NCBI RefSeq assembly: GCF_000518485.1
Contig: NZ_JADR01000002.1
Location: forward strand, 1 to 64,000
From: Olleya marilimosa CAM030
Lineage (GTDB): Bacteria > Bacteroidota > Bacteroidia > Flavobacteriales > Flavobacteriaceae
DNA length: 64,000 nt
Direction of reading: 5' to 3'
The notes beneath the pieces are model-generated. The model was given only the letters and a program-made list of their open reading frames with translations, was not told where the DNA came from and made no database searches. A program made the position numbers and the translations under genes. Positions 13,839 to 50,943 of the stretch are shown here, piece after piece (within the stretch, counting starts at the first letter, position 1; the number at the start of each line of letters is the position of its first letter).

Positions 13839-16800
13839 ATGTTAGAAAACATCATAAGATTCAGCTTAAAAAATAAGCTGATTATTTTCCTTTTTACAGC
13901 CTTTATTATAGGCTTCGGTATTTTCTCGTTAACCAAAATACCAATTGGTGCTGTTCCAGACATTACCAATAACCAAGTTCAGGTTATTACCACATCGCGT
14001 AATTTATCTACGCAAGATGTCGAGCAATTTATAACCTATCCTGTGGAGCTTGAAATGGCCAATTTACCAGGTGTTGAAGAGATTCGTTCGGTTTCCAAAT
14101 TTGGATTATCTGTGGTAACCATCGTTTTTAATGACGACATGGGAACCTTTTTACCAAGACAACTTATTGCTGAAAAAATAAAATCGGCTTCCGAGAAAAT
14201 ACCAGAAGGTTTCGGTACTCCAGAAATGGGACCAATAACTACTGGTTTGGGTGAAATCTACCAATACATTTTAGATGTAAAGCCTGGTTACGAAAACAAA
14301 TATTCCACAACCGATTTGCGTACCATCCAAGATTGGATTGTAAAGCGTCAATTGTCAGGCATTCCTGGAGTGGTTGAAGTGAATACTTGGGGCGGATTTT
14401 TAAAGCAATACGAAGTTGCTATTAACCCAAACAAACTAACTGCAATGAATATTTCTATTGCAGAAATTTACAAGGCTTTAGAAAAAAACAACAGTGTATC
14501 TGGTGGTGGTTATATCGAAAAAAATGACAAAGCTTTTTTTATTCGTGGTGAAGGTTTGGTAGGCTCTTTAGAAGATATTAAAAACATAGTCGTTAAAAAT
14601 GATGGCTCACCAATTTACATTAAAGATGTTGCTATTGTTGGCTTTGGAAGCGCAACACGTTTTGGAGCCATTACAGGAAATGGAGAAGGCGAAAAAGTAT
14701 TAGGACAAATCATGATGCTTAAAGATGGTAACTCTAAAGAAGTTATAGACACTGTAAAAGAACGCGTAGCATCCATACAAAGCACATTGCCAGAAGGTGT
14801 TTATATTAATGGTTTTTTAGAGCGAAGCGAGCTGATTGGAAAAACCACATTTACCGTTGCCGAAAACTTAATTCTAGGCTCTTTAATCGTCATTTTTGTG
14901 GTGGTTTTACTATTGGGTAATTGGCGTTCAGGTTTGGTTGTTGCTTCTGTTATTCCGTTAAGTTTATTGTTTGCAATTATATTGATGCGTCAATTTGGTG
15001 TCGATGCCAATTTAATGAGTTTAGGTGCTATTGATTTTGGAATTATTATAGATGGAGCAGTCATAATTGTCGAGTTTATTGCGTTTCAAATTATGTCTAA
15101 AGCGTCGCAGCTTTCAGAAATTAATAAAAACAAAAAACAAGCCGAAATTGACCAAATAACACTAAAAAGCGCTTCAAAAATGATGAATTCTGCCATTTTT
15201 GGGCAATTAATCATATTAATCGTGTTTATTCCAATTCTGTCTTTAAGTGGTATTGAAGGCAAAATGTTTAAGCCTATGGCAATGACGTTCAGCTTTGCTT
15301 TAATAGGCGCAATGATTTTATGTTTAACCTATGTTCCTGTGGTCTCATCGTTGTTTTTAAAGCCAAGTAAACAGTCTGCAAAAAACATTTCGGTTAGACT
15401 AATGCACTTTTTAAATAAAGGCTACCAACCTATTATTAATTGGGCATTGTCTAACAAAAAAATAGTGGTTGTATTATCTGCTATTTTACTAGCGTCTAGT
15501 ATATGGATTTTTAGTAAAATGGGAGGCGAATTTGTACCAACTTTAGACGAAGGCGATTTTGTTATTCAACCTGTTTTAAAAACTGGAACTTCACTTGGAA
15601 AAACGATAGAAATCACAACAAGAATTGAACAAATTCTTTTAGATAATTTTCCAGAAGTAGACCAAGTGGTTACACGTATTGGCGCTGCAGAAGTCCCAAC
15701 AGACCCAATGTCTATGGAAGAAAGTGATGTGATTATTAAACTGAAACCTAAAAAAGAATGGACATCTGCACATAGTAAAGATGCATTAGCAGATAAGTTC
15801 AAGGAAGCTTTAGCAGTTATTCCAGGAATGGAAGTAGAATTTACCCAACCTATAGAAATGCGATTTAACGAGCTAGTTACTGGTGTTCGTGCAGATGTTG
15901 CGATTAAAATTTTTGGAGAAAACTTAACCGTTTTAGCTAATAAAGCAGATGAAATTAAAAGACTTATTGAAAATGTAGAAGGTGCTGCAGATATTTCAGT
16001 TGAAAAAGTAGAAGGCTTACCACAAATGAGTGTGAAATTCAACAGAAGTAAAATTGCGCGTTACGGACTTAATATTTCCGATTTAAACGATGTTATTTCC
16101 ATGGGATTTGCTGGTAAAACAGCAGGAAGTGTTTTTGAAGGTGAAAAACGTTTTGATTTAGTGCTTCGACTTCAAGAAAATAATAGAAAAAACATGGAAA
16201 GTCTTCAAAACCTCTATGTCGATACACCAAGTGGAACTAAAATTCCGCTTAGCGAATTAGCAGAAATTAGCTATACAACTGGTCCTGCTCAAATATCTCG
16301 AGACGACACCAAACGTCGTATTGTAGTTGGTATTAACGTTAGAAACCGAGATTTACAATCTGTTGTAAACGACGTGCAACACATTATTGAAAGCAAGCTA
16401 AAACTTCCCGTTGGTTACACTATTACGTATGGTGGACAATTTGAAAACTTACAAAGTGCAAAAGACCGCTTATTAGTTGCAGTACCTGTGGCTTTAGTCT
16501 TAATATTTATCCTCCTTTATTTTGCATTTAACTCGGTTAAAGAAGCGCTAATTGTGTATTCTGCTATTCCATTATCTGCAGTTGGTGGCATCCTTTTATT
16601 ATGGTTAAGAGATTTACCTTTTAGTATTTCGGCAGGTGTTGGTTTTATTGCATTATTTGGAATTGCAGTACTAAACGGAATTGTATTAATCGAGCATTTT
16701 AAAGAACTTAAAGCGGAAGGTTTCAGCAATATAAACGAACGTATTAAAAAAGGAACCACAGAACGTTTACGACCAGTTTTACTTACTGCATCAGCTGCAG

Positions 16801-18152
16801 CTTTAGGGTTTTTACCTATGGCTGTTTCTACAAATGCTGGTGCAGAAGTACAACGTCCTTTAGCAACGGTTGTTATTGGTGGTTTGTTTACTGCAACTTT
16901 ACTAACCTTAGTAGTATTACCTGTTTTATATGCTTGGTTTGAAGAAAAAAAAGCGCTTAAAATGAATAAGAAAACTATTATTTCTGTGATTGTCTTGCTT
17001 TTAACTTTTAGTATTCAAGCACAAAACAAACAACTAAATATTGAACAAACGATAGCATTAGCAATTGAAAACAATGCGAATTTAAAAGCTGAAAACTTAA
17101 AAATTGACCAATCCAATACTTTAGTTGGTTCGGCTTTTACGTTTGATAAAACGAGTGTTTATTATAATTATGACGAAAGTAATTTAGCTATAAATAATGA
17201 GCCTCTTAAGGTTTTTGGCATCTCACAAGATTTTAAATTTCCAACGGTTTATTTTGCTGAAAAGAAAGTGAACGAATCTAAAGTTAGTTTACAAGAAGCT
17301 AATTTTAGTTTGCAATTACAGCAAATAAAAAAACAAGTTTATGCTAATTATTACCAATTAAGTTATGCTAAAAACAAAGCAAAAAATTATAAGTACTTAG
17401 ACAGCTTATATAAAGATTTTGCTCAAAAAGCAAAGCGTCGTTTTGAGTTAGGCGAAACTAATTATCTAGAAATGATTTCTGCTCAATCCAAACAGAAACA
17501 GTTAGAAACACGCTACAAACAATCACTTCAAGACGTTGTTTTATATAGAGAACAACTTAAAAAAATAGTGCAAGTAGATTCTATAACTATTGAAGACAGT
17601 TTGCTTCAAAAACTAGAAGTAGCGCAATTATCTGCCAATCAAAATGTGGGTTTATCGGTTTTTGATGCGACTATAAATTATCAAAAAGCACAAACTAAAT
17701 TAGAAAAACAAAGCATGCTTCCAGATTTAAATGCGGAATATTTTCAAGGTACAAACAGTACTCTAAACGATAATATTAAAGGCTATCAATTGGGCCTTAA
17801 AATTCCTATTTTATTTGGTGGTCAACGTTCAAAAATTAAAGCTTCTAAAATTGCACAAGATATTATTGCCGAACAAAAACAAGATTATCAGGCTAAATTA
17901 AATGCTGAATATCAATCGTTATTGGCAAAGCTTCAGCAGTACGAAGACGCTATTAATTATTACGAAACGCAAGGAAAAACCCTTTCCGAAGAAATTATAA
18001 AAACAGCAAATAGAACCTTTAAAGAAGGTGAAATTGATTTCTTTCAATACATCCAAAGTTTAGAGACTGCAAAAGATATTCAGCTTAGCTATTTAGAGCA
18101 ATTAAATCAATACAATCAAACCGTAATTACCATCAATCACTTAACACTATAA
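13839..18152 (+). CDS. CzcA/CusA-type RND metal pump fused to a TolC-like outer-membrane factor
   Basis: A 1437-residue fusion. Residues 1-1037 are a complete heavy-metal RND transporter of the inner membrane (opening LENIIRFSLKNK; two 6-helix bundles; periplasmic loops). The helix-4 signature DFGIIIDGA with D399 and D405 is the DFGxxxDGA type of divalent-cation (Zn/Co/Cd/Ni) pumps rather than Cu/Ag CusA. Residue 1042 onward (M1042, bases 16962-16964) starts like a fresh signal peptide (NKKTIISVIVLLL, SIQAQ) and continues as a roughly 396-residue TolC/CzcC-like helical outer-membrane factor. Such fusions occur in Bacteroidota. Topology fits: the RND part ends in the cytoplasm and the second signal would export the rest. 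The adaptor follows 4 bases later. Confidence 0.92.
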   Translation: MLENIIRFSLKNKLIIFLFTAFIIGFGIFSLTKIPIGAVPDITNNQVQVITTSRNLSTQDVEQFITYPVELEMANLPGVEEIRSVSKFGLSVVTIVFNDDMGTFLPRQLIAEKIKSASEKIPEGFGTPEMGPITTGLGEIYQYILDVKPGYENKYSTTDLRTIQDWIVKRQLSGIPGVVEVNTWGGFLKQYEVAINPNKLTAMNISIAEIYKALEKNNSVSGGGYIEKNDKAFFIRGEGLVGSLEDIKNIVVKNDGSPIYIKDVAIVGFGSATRFGAITGNGEGEKVLGQIMMLKDGNSKEVIDTVKERVASIQSTLPEGVYINGFLERSELIGKTTFTVAENLILGSLIVIFVVVLLLGNWRSGLVVASVIPLSLLFAIILMRQFGVDANLMSLGAIDFGIIIDGAVIIVEFIAFQIMSKASQLSEINKNKKQAEIDQITLKSASKMMNSAIFGQLIILIVFIPILSLSGIEGKMFKPMAMTFSFALIGAMILCLTYVPVVSSLFLKPSKQSAKNISVRLMHFLNKGYQPIINWALSNKKIVVVLSAILLASSIWIFSKMGGEFVPTLDEGDFVIQPVLKTGTSLGKTIEITTRIEQILLDNFPEVDQVVTRIGAAEVPTDPMSMEESDVIIKLKPKKEWTSAHSKDALADKFKEALAVIPGMEVEFTQPIEMRFNELVTGVRADVAIKIFGENLTVLANKADEIKRLIENVEGAADISVEKVEGLPQMSVKFNRSKIARYGLNISDLNDVISMGFAGKTAGSVFEGEKRFDLVLRLQENNRKNMESLQNLYVDTPSGTKIPLSELAEISYTTGPAQISRDDTKRRIVVGINVRNRDLQSVVNDVQHIIESKLKLPVGYTITYGGQFENLQSAKDRLLVAVPVALVLIFILLYFAFNSVKEALIVYSAIPLSAVGGILLLWLRDLPFSISAGVGFIALFGIAVLNGIVLIEHFKELKAEGFSNINERIKKGTTERLRPVLLTASAAALGFLPMAVSTNAGAEVQRPLATVVIGGLFTATLLTLVVLPVLYAWFEEKKALKMNKKTIISVIVLLLTFSIQAQNKQLNIEQTIALAIENNANLKAENLKIDQSNTLVGSAFTFDKTSVYYNYDESNLAINNEPLKVFGISQDFKFPTVYFAEKKVNESKVSLQEANFSLQLQQIKKQVYANYYQLSYAKNKAKNYKYLDSLYKDFAQKAKRRFELGETNYLEMISAQSKQKQLETRYKQSLQDVVLYREQLKKIVQVDSITIEDSLLQKLEVAQLSANQNVGLSVFDATINYQKAQTKLEKQSMLPDLNAEYFQGTNSTLNDNIKGYQLGLKIPILFGGQRSKIKASKIAQDIIAEQKQDYQAKLNAEYQSLLAKLQQYEDAINYYETQGKTLSEEIIKTANRTFKEGEIDFFQYIQSLETAKDIQLSYLEQLNQYNQTVITINHLTL

Positions 18153-18156
18153 AGCG

Positions 18157-19302
18157 ATGAACAAGATATACATCCTATTATTTTCACTGGTTTTAGTAGC
18201 CTGCGGAAAATCAGAAAAGACAACAGAACTAGTTCCTGAAACGGAAACACATAACGACGACATTACCATTACAAAAGCTCAATTTGAAGGCGAAAAAATG
18301 GCTTTTGGCACCTTAGCCGAATACGATTTTAACGAAACCGTAAAAGTAAACGGAATGATAGATGTGCCACCAAAAAACAAATCTAGTGTTTCTACTTTTA
18401 CAGGTGGTTATATTACAAAAACACCATTGTTAGTTGGAGATAGCGTAAAAAAAGGACAACTTTTAGTCACTTTAGAAAATCCTGAATTTGTAGAGCTTCA
18501 GCAAAATTACTTGGAAGTTTCAGAGCAATTAAATTATTTAAAATCTGAATTTAACAGACAAAAAACATTGTTTGATGAAAAAATTACTTCAGAAAAAAAC
18601 TATCTAAAAGCCGAAAGCGCATACAAAAGCAACCTTGCGCATTATAACGGATTACGCAAAAAATTACAAATGCTAAACCTTAATCCAAGTAGTGTAGAAC
18701 AAGGACGCATTGCTTCAACCATAAACTTATATGCACCAATTTCCGGACACGTTACAAAGGTTAATGTTAGTAACGGAACCTATGTTTCGCCAAGCGATGT
18801 TATCATGGAAATTGTGGATATTGACCACATTCATTTAGAACTATTGGTCTTTGAAAAGGACATCATGCAAATTAAAAAAGATCAAAAAATCGAGTTTACC
18901 ATTCCTGAAGCATCAGAAAAAACCTTTGAAGCTGAAGTGCATTTAGTTGGTACCACAATCGATGAGCAAACACGACGTGTTAAAGTACATGGACACGTAG
19001 ATAACGACAAGGAAAACTTTATTGTTGGTATGTTTGTAGATGCTGATATTATTATAGAAAGTAAAAAAGGATTCGGCTTGCCAAAAGAAGCACTAATTGA
19101 AGTTGATAATCAGTTTTTTGTTTTAATTTTAGACGAAGAAAATACAGATGAATTTCATTTTGAAACGTTTAAATTAGAGCTTGGAAAACAAACCGAAGTC
19201 TATGTCGAAATTTTAAATTCTGAAGCTTTAAAGGATAAACAAATAGTAATTAAAGGCACAAATATGTTGCTAAATAATGGCGAAGGAGGACACAGTCATT
19301 AA
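18157..19302 (+). CDS. RND periplasmic adaptor lipoprotein (CzcB/CusB-like)
   Basis: A 381-residue membrane fusion protein linking the inner-membrane pump to the outer-membrane factor. Lipobox LVAC with lipidated C16. A biotinyl-lipoyl-like domain (about residues 70-110 and 185-215; PLLVGDSVKKGQLL, APISGHVTKVNVSNGTYV) flanks an alpha-hairpin (about 110-175), followed by beta-barrel and membrane-proximal domains (IHLELLVFEKD, FIVGMFVDADI). It begins 4 bases after the pump-TolC fusion, so it is translationally close-coupled and is the third component of the same tripartite system. Confidence 0.93.
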   Translation: MNKIYILLFSLVLVACGKSEKTTELVPETETHNDDITITKAQFEGEKMAFGTLAEYDFNETVKVNGMIDVPPKNKSSVSTFTGGYITKTPLLVGDSVKKGQLLVTLENPEFVELQQNYLEVSEQLNYLKSEFNRQKTLFDEKITSEKNYLKAESAYKSNLAHYNGLRKKLQMLNLNPSSVEQGRIASTINLYAPISGHVTKVNVSNGTYVSPSDVIMEIVDIDHIHLELLVFEKDIMQIKKDQKIEFTIPEASEKTFEAEVHLVGTTIDEQTRRVKVHGHVDNDKENFIVGMFVDADIIIESKKGFGLPKEALIEVDNQFFVLILDEENTDEFHFETFKLELGKQTEVYVEILNSEALKDKQIVIKGTNMLLNNGEGGHSH

Positions 19303-19326
19303 CAATAATCATACAGCATACATTAC

Positions 19327-21303
19327 ATGAGCAACCATACTAGCGACACACATAACCACAACCATAATTTAATTTTTGGTAAAAAAACAGAACTCTATTT
19401 TGCCATACTTTGTGGTGTTTTTTTGGTCGCTGGATTTACTATCGAAAAACTAACCGATTTATCAACTTGGGCTTCATTAATAAGCTACATGGTTTCATAC
19501 TTTTTTGGTGGTTATTTCATTTTTATTGAAGCGTTAAAAAAAATACCAAAAGGACAATTTGATATCGATTTTTTAATGATTGCTGCTGCAATTGGAGCTG
19601 CATACATTGGCAGTTGGGCAGAAGGTGCTTTGCTTTTATTTTTATTTAGTTTAGGTCATGCGTTGGAACATTACGCGATGAATAAAGCTAAAAAATCTAT
19701 TGAAGCATTAAGTGATTTATCACCAAAAATAGCATTGGTAAAAAATGGAAATCAGCTAATTGAAACACCAATTGAAGATTTAAAAATTGGAGATACAATT
19801 GTAATAAAACCAAACACTAAAATCGCAGCAGATGGCGTAATAATTAGCGGAAACAGCAGTATTAATCAGGCACCAATTACTGGAGAAAGCATGCCTGTTG
19901 ACAAAACAGCAATTGCAACTTTAAATAATTTACCAGAGTTTAAACACATCGATAAAAAACACATTGCATTTACAGGTACTATAAATGGAGATAGCACTAT
20001 TGAAGTGCATGTTTTAAAACTTAGTCACGACTCTACAGTGGCACGATTAATTAAAATGGTGAGTGAGGTAGAAACACAAAAATCGCCAACACAACGTTTA
20101 ACCAAAAAGTTTGAAAAATGGTATGTGCCAATTGTAATAATTGTGGTTGTTTTACTCTGTTTTGCCTACTTAGTTATAGACGAAACATTTAACGAAAGTT
20201 TATACAGAGCCATAACCGTTTTGGTAGCAGCAAGTCCTTGTGCTTTGGCCATATCTACACCAAGTGCAGTCCTTAGCGGAATTGCAAGAGCAGCTCAAAA
20301 AGGGGTTTTAATTAAAGGCGGAAAAGCATTAGAAGATTTAGGAAGTATTACCACAATTGCATTCGATAAAACAGGAACGTTAACTGAAGGAAAACCAAAA
20401 TTAACCAATGTGATTGCTTTAAATAATTTTGATGAAAATGAATTTCTCCAAATTGTTTTAGAAGTAGAAAGTTTAAGCAATCATCCACTAGCAAAAGCAA
20501 TAGCAAAGGATATTAAAAAGCTACATAATATACGTTTTAAAGGCATTGCTAAAAACATTGAAGCCATACAAGGAAAAGGAATTACTGCTATATATGACAA
20601 CGCTAAAGTCTTTATTGGTAACCTTAAATTAATGAAAGATGAAGGTATTACAGTTGAAGATGCTGTAATCTCAACAATGGATAGCCTTTTAAAACATGGT
20701 CATACCGTTATGTTGGTTGCTTTAAAAAACGAAGTGATAGGTATCATTAGCGTTATGGATACACCAAGAGAAACTGCAGAAAGCACATTAAAAAGGCTAA
20801 AAGCAATTGGTATTAAACGTATGATTATGCTAACAGGAGATCATCAAAATGTTGGTGATGCTATTGCAAAACAAATAGGATTAACAGAAGCAAAAGGAAA
20901 TTTACTACCAGAAGATAAAGTAAAAGCTATTAAAGATTTATTAGCCACAGACGGAAAAATCGCAATGGTTGGAGATGGTGTAAATGATGCACCAGCAATG
21001 GCTTTAAGTACAGTTAGTGTTGCAATGGGAGCAGCTGGAAGCGATGTGGCTTTAGAAACTGCAGACGTCGCTTTAATGTCTGACAAAATAGAAAACTTAC
21101 CTTTTGTTATTGGGTTAAGTAGAGCCTCTAAACGCATTATTAAAGAGAATATTTTTATAAGTTTAGGTGTTGTTGCTATACTTGTTCCTGTTACCATTCT
21201 TGGATTAACCAATATTGGATTAGCTGTTTTATTTCATGAAGGATCAACCATAGTGGTTGTTTTAAATGCGTTACGCTTATTGGCTTATAAGGAAGATTTA
21301 TAA
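19327..21303 (+). CDS. P1B-4-type heavy-metal P-type ATPase
   Basis: A 658-residue ion-pumping ATPase of the inner membrane. Phosphorylation site DKTGTLTEG (D347), actuator TGES and hinge GDGVNDAP are all present. The membrane metal site reads SPC (303-305) in helix 6 and HEGST (637-641) in the last helix region. That combination defines the P1B-4 subgroup, associated with Co2+, and in some members Fe2+, Zn2+ or Ni2+ export. There is no N-terminal HMA domain; instead the first 14 residues carry four His (H4, H9, H11, H13). It follows the RND adaptor by 24 bases, so cytoplasmic and periplasmic export steps are encoded together. Confidence 0.93.
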   Translation: MSNHTSDTHNHNHNLIFGKKTELYFAILCGVFLVAGFTIEKLTDLSTWASLISYMVSYFFGGYFIFIEALKKIPKGQFDIDFLMIAAAIGAAYIGSWAEGALLLFLFSLGHALEHYAMNKAKKSIEALSDLSPKIALVKNGNQLIETPIEDLKIGDTIVIKPNTKIAADGVIISGNSSINQAPITGESMPVDKTAIATLNNLPEFKHIDKKHIAFTGTINGDSTIEVHVLKLSHDSTVARLIKMVSEVETQKSPTQRLTKKFEKWYVPIVIIVVVLLCFAYLVIDETFNESLYRAITVLVAASPCALAISTPSAVLSGIARAAQKGVLIKGGKALEDLGSITTIAFDKTGTLTEGKPKLTNVIALNNFDENEFLQIVLEVESLSNHPLAKAIAKDIKKLHNIRFKGIAKNIEAIQGKGITAIYDNAKVFIGNLKLMKDEGITVEDAVISTMDSLLKHGHTVMLVALKNEVIGIISVMDTPRETAESTLKRLKAIGIKRMIMLTGDHQNVGDAIAKQIGLTEAKGNLLPEDKVKAIKDLLATDGKIAMVGDGVNDAPAMALSTVSVAMGAAGSDVALETADVALMSDKIENLPFVIGLSRASKRIIKENIFISLGVVAILVPVTILGLTNIGLAVLFHEGSTIVVVLNALRLLAYKEDL

Positions 21304-47284: not shown

Positions 47285-48577
47285 ATGAAATATCACAAAA
47301 TCGACTCGTCATTATTTATAAAAAACCGTAAAAATTTTGCTTCTCAAATGAAGCCAAAAAGTATTGCCTTTTTTAACTCTAATGATATTTATCCAATTAG
47401 TGCAGATAGCACATTACCATTCCAACAACAACGCGATATTTTTTACTTAAGTGGTGTTGATCAAGAAGAAAGTATTTTAGTTTTATTTCCGGATTGTCCA
47501 AATCCTAAAAACAGAGAGGTTTTATTTTTAAAAGAAACCAATGCACACATTGCTGTTTGGGAAGGTGAAAAACTAACTAAAGAGGCTGCATTGGCTACAA
47601 GCGGAATTAAAACCGTTTATTGGTTACAAGACTTAGAAAAAGTTGTGTTTGAAATGATGACACAAGCCGAAACCGTTTACATAAACACCAATGAGCATTA
47701 CAGAGCTAATGTAGAAACCGAAACAAGAGAAGACCGTTTTACTAAATGGATAAAAGATAAATATCCTGCACATAGTGTTGCTAAAAGCAATCCAATATTA
47801 CAACGCTTAAGATCTGTAAAAGATCAAATTGAATTAGACTTAATCCAAACCGCTTGTGATATTACAAATAAAGGTTTTAGACGTGTTTTAAACTTTGTTA
47901 AACCTGGCGTTATGGAATACAACATTGAAGCCGAGTTTATGCATGAGTTTTTAAATAATCGTTCTAAAGGCTTTTCATACACACCAATTGTAGGTTCTGG
48001 AAACAACGCTAACGTGTTACACTATATAGAAAACAATCAAGAGTGTAAAGCTGGAGATTTGATATTAATTGATGCTGGAGCAGAATACGCTAATTACGCT
48101 AGTGACATGACACGTACTATACCTGTTTCTGGTAAATACAATGACAGACAAAAAGCGGTTTACAATGCTGTTTTGAGAGTTAAAAATGAGGCTACAAAAA
48201 TGCTAGTTCCTGGTACAATTTGGGCTGACTACCATGTGGAAGTTGGTAAATTAATGACTAGTGAACTTTTAGGTTTAGGCTTACTTGATAAAGCAGATGT
48301 ACAAAACGAAAATCCAGATTGGCCTGCTTATAAAAAATACTTTATGCATGGTACGTCACACCACATGGGATTAGACACGCATGACTACGGGATTTTAACA
48401 GAACCAATGCAAGCTAACAACGTATTTACTGTTGAGCCTGGAATTTACATTCCTGCAGAAGGTTTTGGTATTAGATTGGAAGATGATGTTGTGATCCAAA
48501 AATCTGGAGAACCTTTTAATTTAATGAGAGACATCCCAATTGAAATTGAGGAAATTGAGGATATAATGAATAAGTAA
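47285..48577 (+). CDS. pepP: Xaa-Pro aminopeptidase (aminopeptidase P, M24B)
   Basis: 430 residues, cytoplasmic, removing an N-terminal residue before proline. An N-terminal AMP_N domain (about 1-140) precedes the pita-bread metallopeptidase fold. The five metal ligands are readable: the Asp pair in LIDAGAEYANYASDMTRT, His in HGTSHHMGLDTHD, and Glu in FTVEPGIYI and IRLEDDVV. It is followed after 39 bases by an unrelated membrane protein gene. Confidence 0.95.
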   Translation: MKYHKIDSSLFIKNRKNFASQMKPKSIAFFNSNDIYPISADSTLPFQQQRDIFYLSGVDQEESILVLFPDCPNPKNREVLFLKETNAHIAVWEGEKLTKEAALATSGIKTVYWLQDLEKVVFEMMTQAETVYINTNEHYRANVETETREDRFTKWIKDKYPAHSVAKSNPILQRLRSVKDQIELDLIQTACDITNKGFRRVLNFVKPGVMEYNIEAEFMHEFLNNRSKGFSYTPIVGSGNNANVLHYIENNQECKAGDLILIDAGAEYANYASDMTRTIPVSGKYNDRQKAVYNAVLRVKNEATKMLVPGTIWADYHVEVGKLMTSELLGLGLLDKADVQNENPDWPAYKKYFMHGTSHHMGLDTHDYGILTEPMQANNVFTVEPGIYIPAEGFGIRLEDDVVIQKSGEPFNLMRDIPIEIEEIEDIMNK

Positions 48578-48616
48578 AATTTTCAAAATAAACTTTACTT
48601 CAAAAGAAATTAAATA

Positions 48617-49561
48617 ATGGATAATTCATCTTTCGAAAAAGGAGAAAAATTCGAAGGTTTTGTAGAAAAGAATCTTTTCCCAAAATCAGATTATGATTTA
48701 ATACATAGAACTAATGCTTTTAGTCAAAACAGCAAAAGATATTCTGAGAACACTCTAAAACCTGATTTCAAATTTAGATGCAAGAAAACTAAAAAGGAAT
48801 TTTATATAGAAGCCAAATATCGTTCAAGCTTCAACTCGGACGATATGGTGGAGGTGATTAGCTTTACCCAATTAGAACGATTTAGAAAAATACAAGCAGA
48901 TGAAAATACTTCAGTCTTTATAGTTCTAGGAATAGAAGGCTCACCCGAAAACCCGAAAAATGTAAGCTTAATTCCTTTAAATGAATTAGCATATCTTAAA
49001 CTATACCCTTCTTTTATCAACAAATTTAAAATTGAAAAATCAGCAGTCACCAATGAAATTTTAAAGTCATACGATGTAGAGTATACCAACAATGATCTAG
49101 AGAAAAAGCAATTTAAAGCTAAGCCTAAAAACATTTTAATAGGGATGCTTCTTTTGATTATAACTACAGCTAGTTTTTTTATTTTTTACGAAAACACTGA
49201 AAGCAAAATCAGAAAGAAAACAACTGAATATTATCAACATTTAGAAAATGGCAACATAAATGCTTTAAAAAACTATATAGCTCCGAAAGTCAATAATTGG
49301 TATGACAAATCAGATTTAACTTTAGATGAAATAATAATAGAAACCTCAAAGTATTTAAAAAATTTCCCAAAAAGCACTACGAATGTGCAATGGGACACTT
49401 TTAAATTTTCAGAACTAGGTGAAGATTACCTATGTACTTACAATTTATTATATAAAATCAAATCAAAGGGAAAATTTAAAGATAAAATTTATCACTTAAA
49501 AATAAAAGCGACTTGGGGCAAAGACTTTAAATTAAAAAGTATTGTTGAAAACCGACTTTAA
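48617..49561 (+). CDS. Membrane-anchored PD-(D/E)XK-like protein
   Basis: 314 residues in three parts. Residues 1-110 look like a PD-(D/E)XK nuclease fold: E17 in an early helix, P49-D50 followed 15 residues later by E65-A-K67 (FYIEAKYRSSF), and Q85 in the next helix (ISFTQLERF). One transmembrane helix lies at 172-191 (NILIGMLLLIITTASFFIFY), which would put the nuclease-like part in the cytoplasm. Residues about 195-314 resemble an NTF2-like/DUF4878 domain outside the membrane. I know no named family with this layout. The gene appears more AT-rich than its neighbours. Nuclease activity is inference. Confidence 0.65.
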   Translation: MDNSSFEKGEKFEGFVEKNLFPKSDYDLIHRTNAFSQNSKRYSENTLKPDFKFRCKKTKKEFYIEAKYRSSFNSDDMVEVISFTQLERFRKIQADENTSVFIVLGIEGSPENPKNVSLIPLNELAYLKLYPSFINKFKIEKSAVTNEILKSYDVEYTNNDLEKKQFKAKPKNILIGMLLLIITTASFFIFYENTESKIRKKTTEYYQHLENGNINALKNYIAPKVNNWYDKSDLTLDEIIIETSKYLKNFPKSTTNVQWDTFKFSELGEDYLCTYNLLYKIKSKGKFKDKIYHLKIKATWGKDFKLKSIVENRL

Positions 49562-49580
49562 AAAAAAGTAATTAAAATAA

Positions 49581-49607
49581 AAAAGCAAGCCCTAAAAGCT
49601 TGCTTTT
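49581..49607. terminator. Bidirectional terminator between the nuclease-like gene and aspartate kinase
   Basis: Perfect 10-base arms (AAAAGCAAGC and its complement, 49581-49590 and 49598-49607) around a 7-base loop, with T-rich exits on both strands. Confidence 0.8.
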
Positions 49608-49614
49608 CCTCATT

Positions 49615-50943
49615 TTAAACTAAAACAGAATGACTCTCAAAAACATAGCGTTGTAGCTTTTTCAAGGTTTCTTTTTTATCACTTGTATTAATAAGCAAAG
49701 AGATATTATTATTACTTCCTCCATAAGATATCATACGCACGCTTACGTCTTGCAAAATTTGAAACAAATTAGGCGTGTCTGGATGAAATATAATAGCATT
49801 ACCAACTAAACATACAATACTCATATAGTTATCAACCTCAACTACTGAAAATCGATCCAATTCTTCTACAATAGCCTCTAGATGCGTGGTATCATCTATG
49901 GTTAATGACACAGCAATTTCTGATGTTGTAATCATGTCTATGGACGTTTCATAACGCTCAAAAACCTCAAATACTTTCTTTAAAAAACCATGTGCCAATA
50001 ACATTCTGGCAGACTTTATCTTTATGGCTGTAATACCATCTTTTGCAGCAATTGCCTTAATCCCTTCTCCATGGACTTGATTTGTTATTAATGTACCATG
50101 CGCTTCTGGTAACATGGTGTTTTTTAACCTAACTGGTATATCCAATTCACGCACAGGCATAACGGTTTGAGGATGTAATATTTTGGCTCCAAAATAAGCC
50201 AACTCTGCAGACTCATCAAAAGACAAATTAGAAATAGCTGTTGTATTCTCTACAAATCGTGGATCATTGTTATGAAAACCATCTATATCTGTCCAAATCT
50301 GCACTTCTTTTGCTTTTAACACAGCTCCAATTATGGTAGCAGTATAATCACTTCCTCCGCGTTGTAAATTAGCAACATTTCCTTTTACATCACGACAAAT
50401 AAAACCTTGCGTAATATAAATCTCTGCTTTTGGCGACTCATTAATTACACGATTTAAATTTTGTTGTATGTAATAATTATCAGGCTCATTTGTTTTATCA
50501 ATGCGCATAAAATCCAGAGCAGGCAATAACACAGCATTTATATTCTCTTGCTGTAAATAATGGCTAAAGATAAATGTTGACAATAACTCGCCTTGCGACA
50601 CTATTTGATTGTATAATAAATCGTCATACAATCTATTAACCAAAACCTCAAGTGAATTAAAAGTATTATTAACATACACAAAAACCGTTTTATAAATTTC
50701 TGGTGTTGTAATTAAATTTTTAACGGTCGTGTTATAGGTGTTTCTAAGTACATCAATAACAATTAAAGCATCTTCTGGATTATTATTTTTTATGTAATCT
50801 GCAACTTTGACTAAGGCATTTGTGGTACCTGACATAGCAGATAAAACCACAACTTTTTGTTGTCCATTGTTAATAATGTTTTTAACATTAACCATATTTT
50901 CAATAGACCCAACAGATGTGCCTCCAAACTTTAATACCAACAT
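49615..50943 (-). CDS. Aspartate kinase
   Basis: 442-residue monofunctional aspartokinase, the first step from aspartate to lysine, threonine, methionine and diaminopimelate. The N-terminal kinase domain has KFGGTSVGS at residues 5-13 and LQRGGSDYTATIIGAVL around residue 195; substrate and nucleotide regions are intact. Two C-terminal ACT domains (about 300-440; TAIKIKSARM, MSIVCLVGNAI) are expected to sense end-product amino acids. It is divergent from a gene encoding another ACT protein. Which isozyme (lysC, thrA or metL type) cannot be told. Confidence 0.93.
   Translation of the reverse strand: MLVLKFGGTSVGSIENMVNVKNIINNGQQKVVVLSAMSGTTNALVKVADYIKNNNPEDALIVIDVLRNTYNTTVKNLITTPEIYKTVFVYVNNTFNSLEVLVNRLYDDLLYNQIVSQGELLSTFIFSHYLQQENINAVLLPALDFMRIDKTNEPDNYYIQQNLNRVINESPKAEIYITQGFICRDVKGNVANLQRGGSDYTATIIGAVLKAKEVQIWTDIDGFHNNDPRFVENTTAISNLSFDESAELAYFGAKILHPQTVMPVRELDIPVRLKNTMLPEAHGTLITNQVHGEGIKAIAAKDGITAIKIKSARMLLAHGFLKKVFEVFERYETSIDMITTSEIAVSLTIDDTTHLEAIVEELDRFSVVEVDNYMSIVCLVGNAIIFHPDTPNLFQILQDVSVRMISYGGSNNNISLLINTSDKKETLKKLQRYVFESHSVLV

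Follow-up and report, generated by a model that had tools for sequence, protein, structure and literature searches.

We describe a gene at positions 48617-49561 of the window, by which we mean the whole 64,000-nucleotide stretch of Olleya marilimosa CAM030 DNA that was analysed. The gene lies on the forward strand and has an ATG start. Its product, of 314 amino acids, is predicted to span the membrane once and has a PD-(D/E)XK domain; 'membrane-tethered Hjc-like nuclease' is a well-supported description of it. We propose that this protein defends the cell against incoming DNA by cutting that DNA at entry, its cleavage, topology and defensive purpose being inferred, and we consider this reading, taken as a whole, about evenly balanced between right and wrong. 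If true, it would add a second, unrelated nuclease fold to a recently described strategy, the cutting of foreign DNA during its passage across the membrane, and the outer domain of the protein could be the recognition part. The proteins described here would also represent a candidate family, found where type I restriction operons end, which is unrecognised by the Pfam and PADLOC versions used.

The nuclease domain and its predicted active site

An AlphaFold2 model of the protein, built from four sequences, has an overall mean pLDDT of 55.5, with values mostly of 84-89 in the blocks of the nuclease core, and models residues ~7-156 as a PD-(D/E)XK core. The modelled helices (H) and strands (E), namely H10-20, E26-31, E51-55, E61-69, H83-96, E99-109 and E112-120, follow one another in the order helix-strand-strand-strand-helix-strand-strand, which fits the alpha-beta-beta-beta-alpha-beta core. 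Archaeoglobus Hjc occupies the top rows of a Foldseek search of the PDB (E 1.3e-4), and VIA-align gives Z 12.3 for Hjc 2eo0 (rmsd 3.4, 124 residues aligned), Z 12.2 for Hjc 2wcw (rmsd 2.6, 117 residues), Z 11.8 for the RecU-type 2fco (rmsd 3.2, 131 residues) and Z 10.9 for SPARDA 9qcc (rmsd 5.2, 129 residues), with the type II restriction enzymes listed at Z of about 5 to 7. An earlier note on this DNA had proposed a PD-(D/E)XK-like fold, to be compared with Hjc-like nucleases; the core is modelled and, since Hjc folds head both the Foldseek and the VIA-align lists (Z about 12 for archaeal Hjc, the closest), that comparison comes out positive. On this fold and on the residue conservation described below, the N-terminal half of the protein almost certainly adopts a PD-(D/E)XK fold with a predicted active site of the Hjc-like kind.

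By sequence, the single 314-aa protein matches nothing significantly in Pfam, NCBIfam, PADLOC or the PDB. Its best Pfam row (E 0.0049, under its cut-off) covers the helix, PADLOC 2.0.0 returns no family at E up to 10, and a PDB profile search gives only chance-level rows, one of which is the motif region of Can2 (E 0.98). Up to an E of 10 the protein has no match to a curated Hjc or Mrr sequence family, and with a limit of E 1 none appears among the matches listed for 18 members. Pfam rows for HsdR, HsdM and HsdS domains are found in neighbours only, and the protein itself has none for these or for GIY-YIG or DUF4041. For the nuclease family PHROGs holds no informative family, and we noticed no paper on it in literature searches, by which its absence is not proven.

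The nuclease domain, which is predicted to be cytoplasmic, is taken as residues 1-140 (48617-49036, forward strand, as are all the features of the protein given below). E13, P49, D50, E65, K67, R69 and Q85 were read directly from the protein and followed through an alignment of nuclease domains from 29 relatives. Of these, 26 are genome loci spread over 25 genomes, and the other three come from a viral contig, an archaeal plasmid and a phage that stands for 19 similar records. The active site proposed in the earlier note consisted of P49-D50, E65-A-K67 and Q85 and was staked on the conservation of D50, E65 and K67 in homologues. The motif is present and its residues are conserved in 27 to 29 of the 29 relatives: P49 (29/29) and D50 (27/29) at 48761-48766, E65 (28/29) and K67 (27/29) of E65-A66-K67 at 48809-48817, and Q85 (27/29), which belongs to a Q-x-x-x-Y/F stretch after the ExK strand, at 48869-48871. 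The mean column majority of the same alignment is 44%. R69, like P49, is found in every relative, and E13 (48653-48655; 28/29), which was absent from the earlier list, lies within a K-G-x-x-F-E stretch and completes the usual set as motif I of the predicted active site. The motif residues given for Hjc are E9, D33, E46 and K48 (PMC1913061).

The full set of E13, D50, E65 and K67 is present in 27/29 aligned domains. In one exception (G307, L032:7168-7617; G and L numbers denote genomes and loci) D50 and K67 are both replaced by N, and in the other (G1340, L090) E13, D50, E65, K67 and Q85 are all changed; in both the overall domain is kept. Such joint loss of the motif residues in degenerate copies is the behaviour expected of a catalytic set.

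The transmembrane helix and the outer domain

A variable linker of low model confidence (residues 141-172, 49037-49132) leads from the nuclease domain to a predicted transmembrane helix (residues 173-191, 49133-49189), the most hydrophobic 19-residue stretch of the protein, with a mean hydropathy of 2.42. A matching hydrophobic stretch occurs in the four other full-length copies (mean hydropathy 2.10-2.66). The arrangement put forward in the earlier note, with a cytoplasmic nuclease, one helix and a small extracytoplasmic domain, agrees with this predicted helix, which all five full-length copies have; its sidedness comes from hydropathy and domain context. We place the N-terminal side inside because a nuclease needs DNA and because the helix and outer domain are also borne by kinase-like and PLD-type proteins, and a membrane protein with its nuclease on the inner side is, on hydropathy and domain context, very probable. 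Charge balance was considered as proof of this topology and dropped, being even in three of the five full-length copies: the numbers of K/R on the two sides of the helix are 5 v 4 in the window protein and 4 v 4 in both G759 and G206. The balance is clear in G255 (6 v 2) and G031 (5 v 1), and the kinase-like protein of G997 has 5 on the kinase side and 0 on the other, which puts its outer domain outside.

Residues 192-314 (49190-49558) form the predicted extracytoplasmic domain, which is weakly NTF2-like. Between the two Olleya copies dS is saturated and dN alone was used, with no dN/dS; dN is 0.20 for this C-terminal part, 0.34 for the nuclease and 0.63, the highest of the three, for the linker and helix together, and the low value argues that the outer domain is no passive tail. 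Among nine members searched against Pfam, NTF2_YvbJ (E 4.3e-4), NTF2 (0.0026), DUF4440 (0.0034) and SnoaL each match a single member weakly, and no NTF2-like model is reported for the window member itself. A model of the domain built from two sequences is poor (mean pLDDT 49.6) and places three helices before four strands; its fold lists hold many NTF2-like, SnoaL-like and CaMKII-hub entries, the best of which (E 0.14, Z 4.7) are below significance. The profiles and the model are consistent with an NTF2-like fold, which is plausible for this domain.

The same outer unit recurs on other proteins. With the helix, it is found on a protein that looks by eye like a Ser/Thr kinase (G997, L042:6011-7555; profile E 6.4e-16) and on a PLD-type protein (G1143, L088:1462-2859) in which PLDc_2 scores above its cut-off; with nothing but the helix it occurs in G195 (L080), and in G418 it forms part of a probable lipoprotein (L019).

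Genomic setting and relatives

The gene begins 39 bp after pepP, which encodes aminopeptidase P (Pfam), and beyond its 3' end lies a convergent aspartokinase-like gene, lysC, with AA_kinase and ACT domains (Pfam). A two-way, terminator-like hairpin at 49581-49607, found on both strands, is common to the two genes and falls within the part common to sister genomes. BLAST similarity to one of these, G756, ends at 48606 and resumes at 49576, so that the whole gene differs between shared borders, and we take the intervening stretch without similarity to the pepP-lysC interval of G756 (48607-49575) as the extent of the exchanged segment. In G754, G755 and G756 the slot is filled by a 216-aa gene that appears by eye to be peroxiredoxin-like. 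G753 has another gene there, of 149 aa, and different ones come after pepP in G757, G346 and G171 (by eye). The interval (window 48577-49615; sister loci L063-L066) is variable in the genus and holds different single genes.

The description of the gene as isolated and AT-rich needs qualifying on both counts. Its GC content of 28.1% is below the mean of the window ORFs (32.6%, sd 2.9%), but only mildly so, being the fourth lowest of 39, and the gene is isolated in the window only, whereas several of its relatives sit in defence operons. Elsewhere in the window, a run of genes at 13839-21303 resembles by eye a heavy-metal efflux set, made up of a CusA/CzcA-like pump of 1437 aa and of proteins similar to a membrane-fusion protein and to a metal P-type ATPase.

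Relatives were sought in genome contigs, whole genomes, phage and plasmid records and viral contigs, the genome draws overlapping one another; the set of 26 loci excludes G267, G418, G691, G195, G997, G1143, G1338 and G1047, whose matches are confined to the C-terminal part. Four other genomes contain full-length relatives with the same three parts: G759, which is an uncultured Olleya of the same genus as the window genome (57% identity), G255 (43%), G031 (34%) and G206 (36%). The nuclease domain is found without a membrane part at six loci, and at fifteen it is preceded either by an N-terminal helix or by a more extended region linked to the membrane. L037, L038, L039, L041, L082 and L085 show an N-terminal helix, an intermediate stretch, which by eye resembles a helical domain of the TerB type, and then the PD-(D/E)XK domain. 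The order is reversed, with an outer domain, a helix and the PD-(D/E)XK domain last, in G893 (L040:6239-7345), G150 (L033:7541-8710) and G1212 (L087:1465-2511), the outer part of the first bearing a weak likeness to the C-terminal domain of the window protein (E 0.086).

The gene is present in two of ten genomes of the genus, at different places in the two Olleya genomes, and a draw from the family gives matches in 10/397 genomes, one of them (G267) to the outer part only. A short relative is shared by 19 phage records, 18 of them from Riemerella phages and the remaining one labelled as a Shigella phage; in the Riemerella phage RAP44 it is gp10 (L074:4950-5402), which lies between a predicted regulator-like gene and an integrase and is likely to be a prophage cargo gene. 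One relative is carried by an archaeal plasmid and one was found in the searches of viral contigs (UViG_3300032024_000414, L094:98-3484). The viral-contig protein has its nuclease domain after four predicted helices, and its gene adjoins, by eye, a recombinase-like gene and another restriction-nuclease-like gene. The patchy spread, the variable slot and the copies on phages and a plasmid together point to an accessory mobile gene and not to a housekeeping one.

Directly beside three of the four other full-length copies lies a defence gene (HsdR, HsdR and DRT2, respectively), neighbours being labelled by eye in loci that had no Pfam or PADLOC scan. In G759 the order is HsdS (by eye), LmuA/LmuC/LmuB-type ABC-3C genes, HsdR and, after 24 bp, the relative. 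In G031, HsdM, HsdS (by eye), AbiD and HsdR (by eye and HSDR_N) precede the relative, the last by 14 bp, and a methyltransferase, a weak PDDEXK_4 protein, ICEA and a Dam-like gene (by eye) follow it. The relative in G206 stands 105 bp after a DRT2 reverse transcriptase, with a type IIG enzyme further up on the same strand, and that in G255 is part of an island in which one gene looks recombinase-like by eye. Among the remaining loci, G234 has the relative, SoFic, HsdM and HsdS in that order; in G1322 the relative comes after hsdM pieces; a type IIG gene, another gene and the relative share one strand in G933; one further gene separates the relative from an upstream type IIG gene in G1139; and the relative in G150 is convergent with HamA/HamB (Hachiman).

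This survey, which the earlier note had suggested, finds a PADLOC-confirmed defence gene adjoining or two genes away at 8/26 loci, a lower bound because only some of the neighbours were scanned; among those scanned, none is confirmed at the other 18/26 loci, and the window copy has no defence neighbour. Two further PADLOC-confirmed genes fall outside this count, the helicase on the archaeal plasmid and a type IIG gene several ORFs from the relative in G740. For two or more of 17 loci to lie directly after an HSDR_N gene the chance is 3.4e-5, calculated from 27 HSDR_N matches in 16 carrier genomes with one gene per kb assumed, for a statistic picked after seeing the data. The window genome has a type I restriction operon of its own on contig C14 (L076, G000:C14:1-12341), identified by eye except for HSDR_N. 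Its hsdS and hsdR are separated by two DUF262-like genes, and recombinase-like genes occupy the ends of the contig (by eye).

Proposed role, alternatives and known systems

The earlier note had offered DNA uptake or defence as the role of the protein; the neighbourhoods favour defence, which from the gene context is probably its purpose, and nothing pointing to uptake was found. We propose that a PD-(D/E)XK nuclease of the Hjc kind would be tethered to the inner membrane on its cytoplasmic side, with the C-terminal domain outside, in the periplasm. The outer domain would keep the protein at, or sense, the point at which foreign DNA passes through the membrane, and the nuclease would cut the incoming DNA during entry, self and foreign being told apart by place and not by sequence. 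The step of cutting at entry, drawn by analogy with SNIPE and with a suggestion made for COG4741, is put forward tentatively.

Relatives lie directly after hsdR in two genomes and near hsdM in two more, and a separate contig of the window genome carries an hsd operon, all of which would suit an accessory nuclease of type I restriction. Such a nuclease would act on DNA that the HsdR motor is holding or translocating, and the window copy would cooperate in trans with the type I system encoded on the other contig. Against this, other copies stand beside DRT2, type IIG or Hachiman genes, or alone, and end-of-operon cargo is common in hsd operons (that of G031 also has AbiD and ICEA). Co-occurrence with hsdR was dropped as evidence, since HSDR_N is found in 15/16 carrier genomes and in 69/100 genomes of the family draw, figures that are too close. 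We regard such an accessory role as unlikely.

It is likewise improbable that the protein is a suicide effector, in which the outer domain would detect envelope damage and turn the freed nuclease against the DNA of its own cell, in the manner of abortive infection. The occurrence of the outer unit on kinase-like and PLD-type proteins does suggest a general sensor with exchangeable effectors, and the outer domain is under strong constraint, but no consistent partner or immunity gene lies alongside, a single helix offers no evident release mechanism and a tethered nuclease would reach the chromosome poorly. Resolvases being the closest folds, one might also think of a membrane-bound recombination, repair or DNA-uptake nuclease with Hjc- or RecU-like work on branched DNA; the sparse distribution in genus and family, the differing places in Olleya, the variable slot, the phage and plasmid copies and the lack of any competence gene seen adjoining make this very unlikely.

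A wider view, which we consider doubtful, is that of a modular single-pass family, in which one outer unit and helix would be combined with exchangeable cytoplasmic effectors (the Hjc-like nuclease, the PLD-type domain or the Ser/Thr kinase). The nuclease form would then be an entry-point defence that recognises, from outside, where injection or conjugation takes place and cuts the DNA inside, and the related helix-first PD-(D/E)XK proteins would be variants of the scheme in which the outer part is a different one.

Membrane location is one way in which DNA-targeting systems choose their target, according to a review (PMC12904381). SNIPE is a membrane nuclease that cuts phage DNA during injection and, as described in PMC13190303, has a nuclease fixed at the inner membrane, as is predicted for the window protein, and shares with it variable membrane-targeting parts and the entry-cutting logic proposed here; it differs in combining GIY-YIG and DUF4041 with an N-terminal helix, where the window protein runs from PD-(D/E)XK domain to helix to outer domain. 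COG4741, proposed in 2005 as a 'membrane-associated guardian against foreign DNA' (PMC1189080), is described there as a small resolvase-related PD-(D/E)XK domain with one membrane helix and a nuclease predicted to be cytosolic. In that account its helix comes before the nuclease, in contrast to the order seen here, it is mostly archaeal and it has no outer domain; no Pfam match links it to the window family (314-aa protein and 18 members). The window protein belongs to neither SNIPE nor COG4741.

RmuC, which has an N-terminal membrane helix and a PD-(D/E)XK-type domain, is set apart by its description, with coiled coils, another order and a link to recombination (PMC1189080). The SPARDA effector nuclease (9qcc, 9vx6 and 9jsz; Z 9.6-10.9) is a defence protein with the same nuclease core, but it is Argonaute-linked and filament-forming and has no membrane part. 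Archaeal Hjc and bacterial RecU share the core fold (Z 11-12), with E, D and ExK in the same order (Hjc residues as given in PMC1913061), and differ from the window protein as soluble repair enzymes without a helix or an outer domain.
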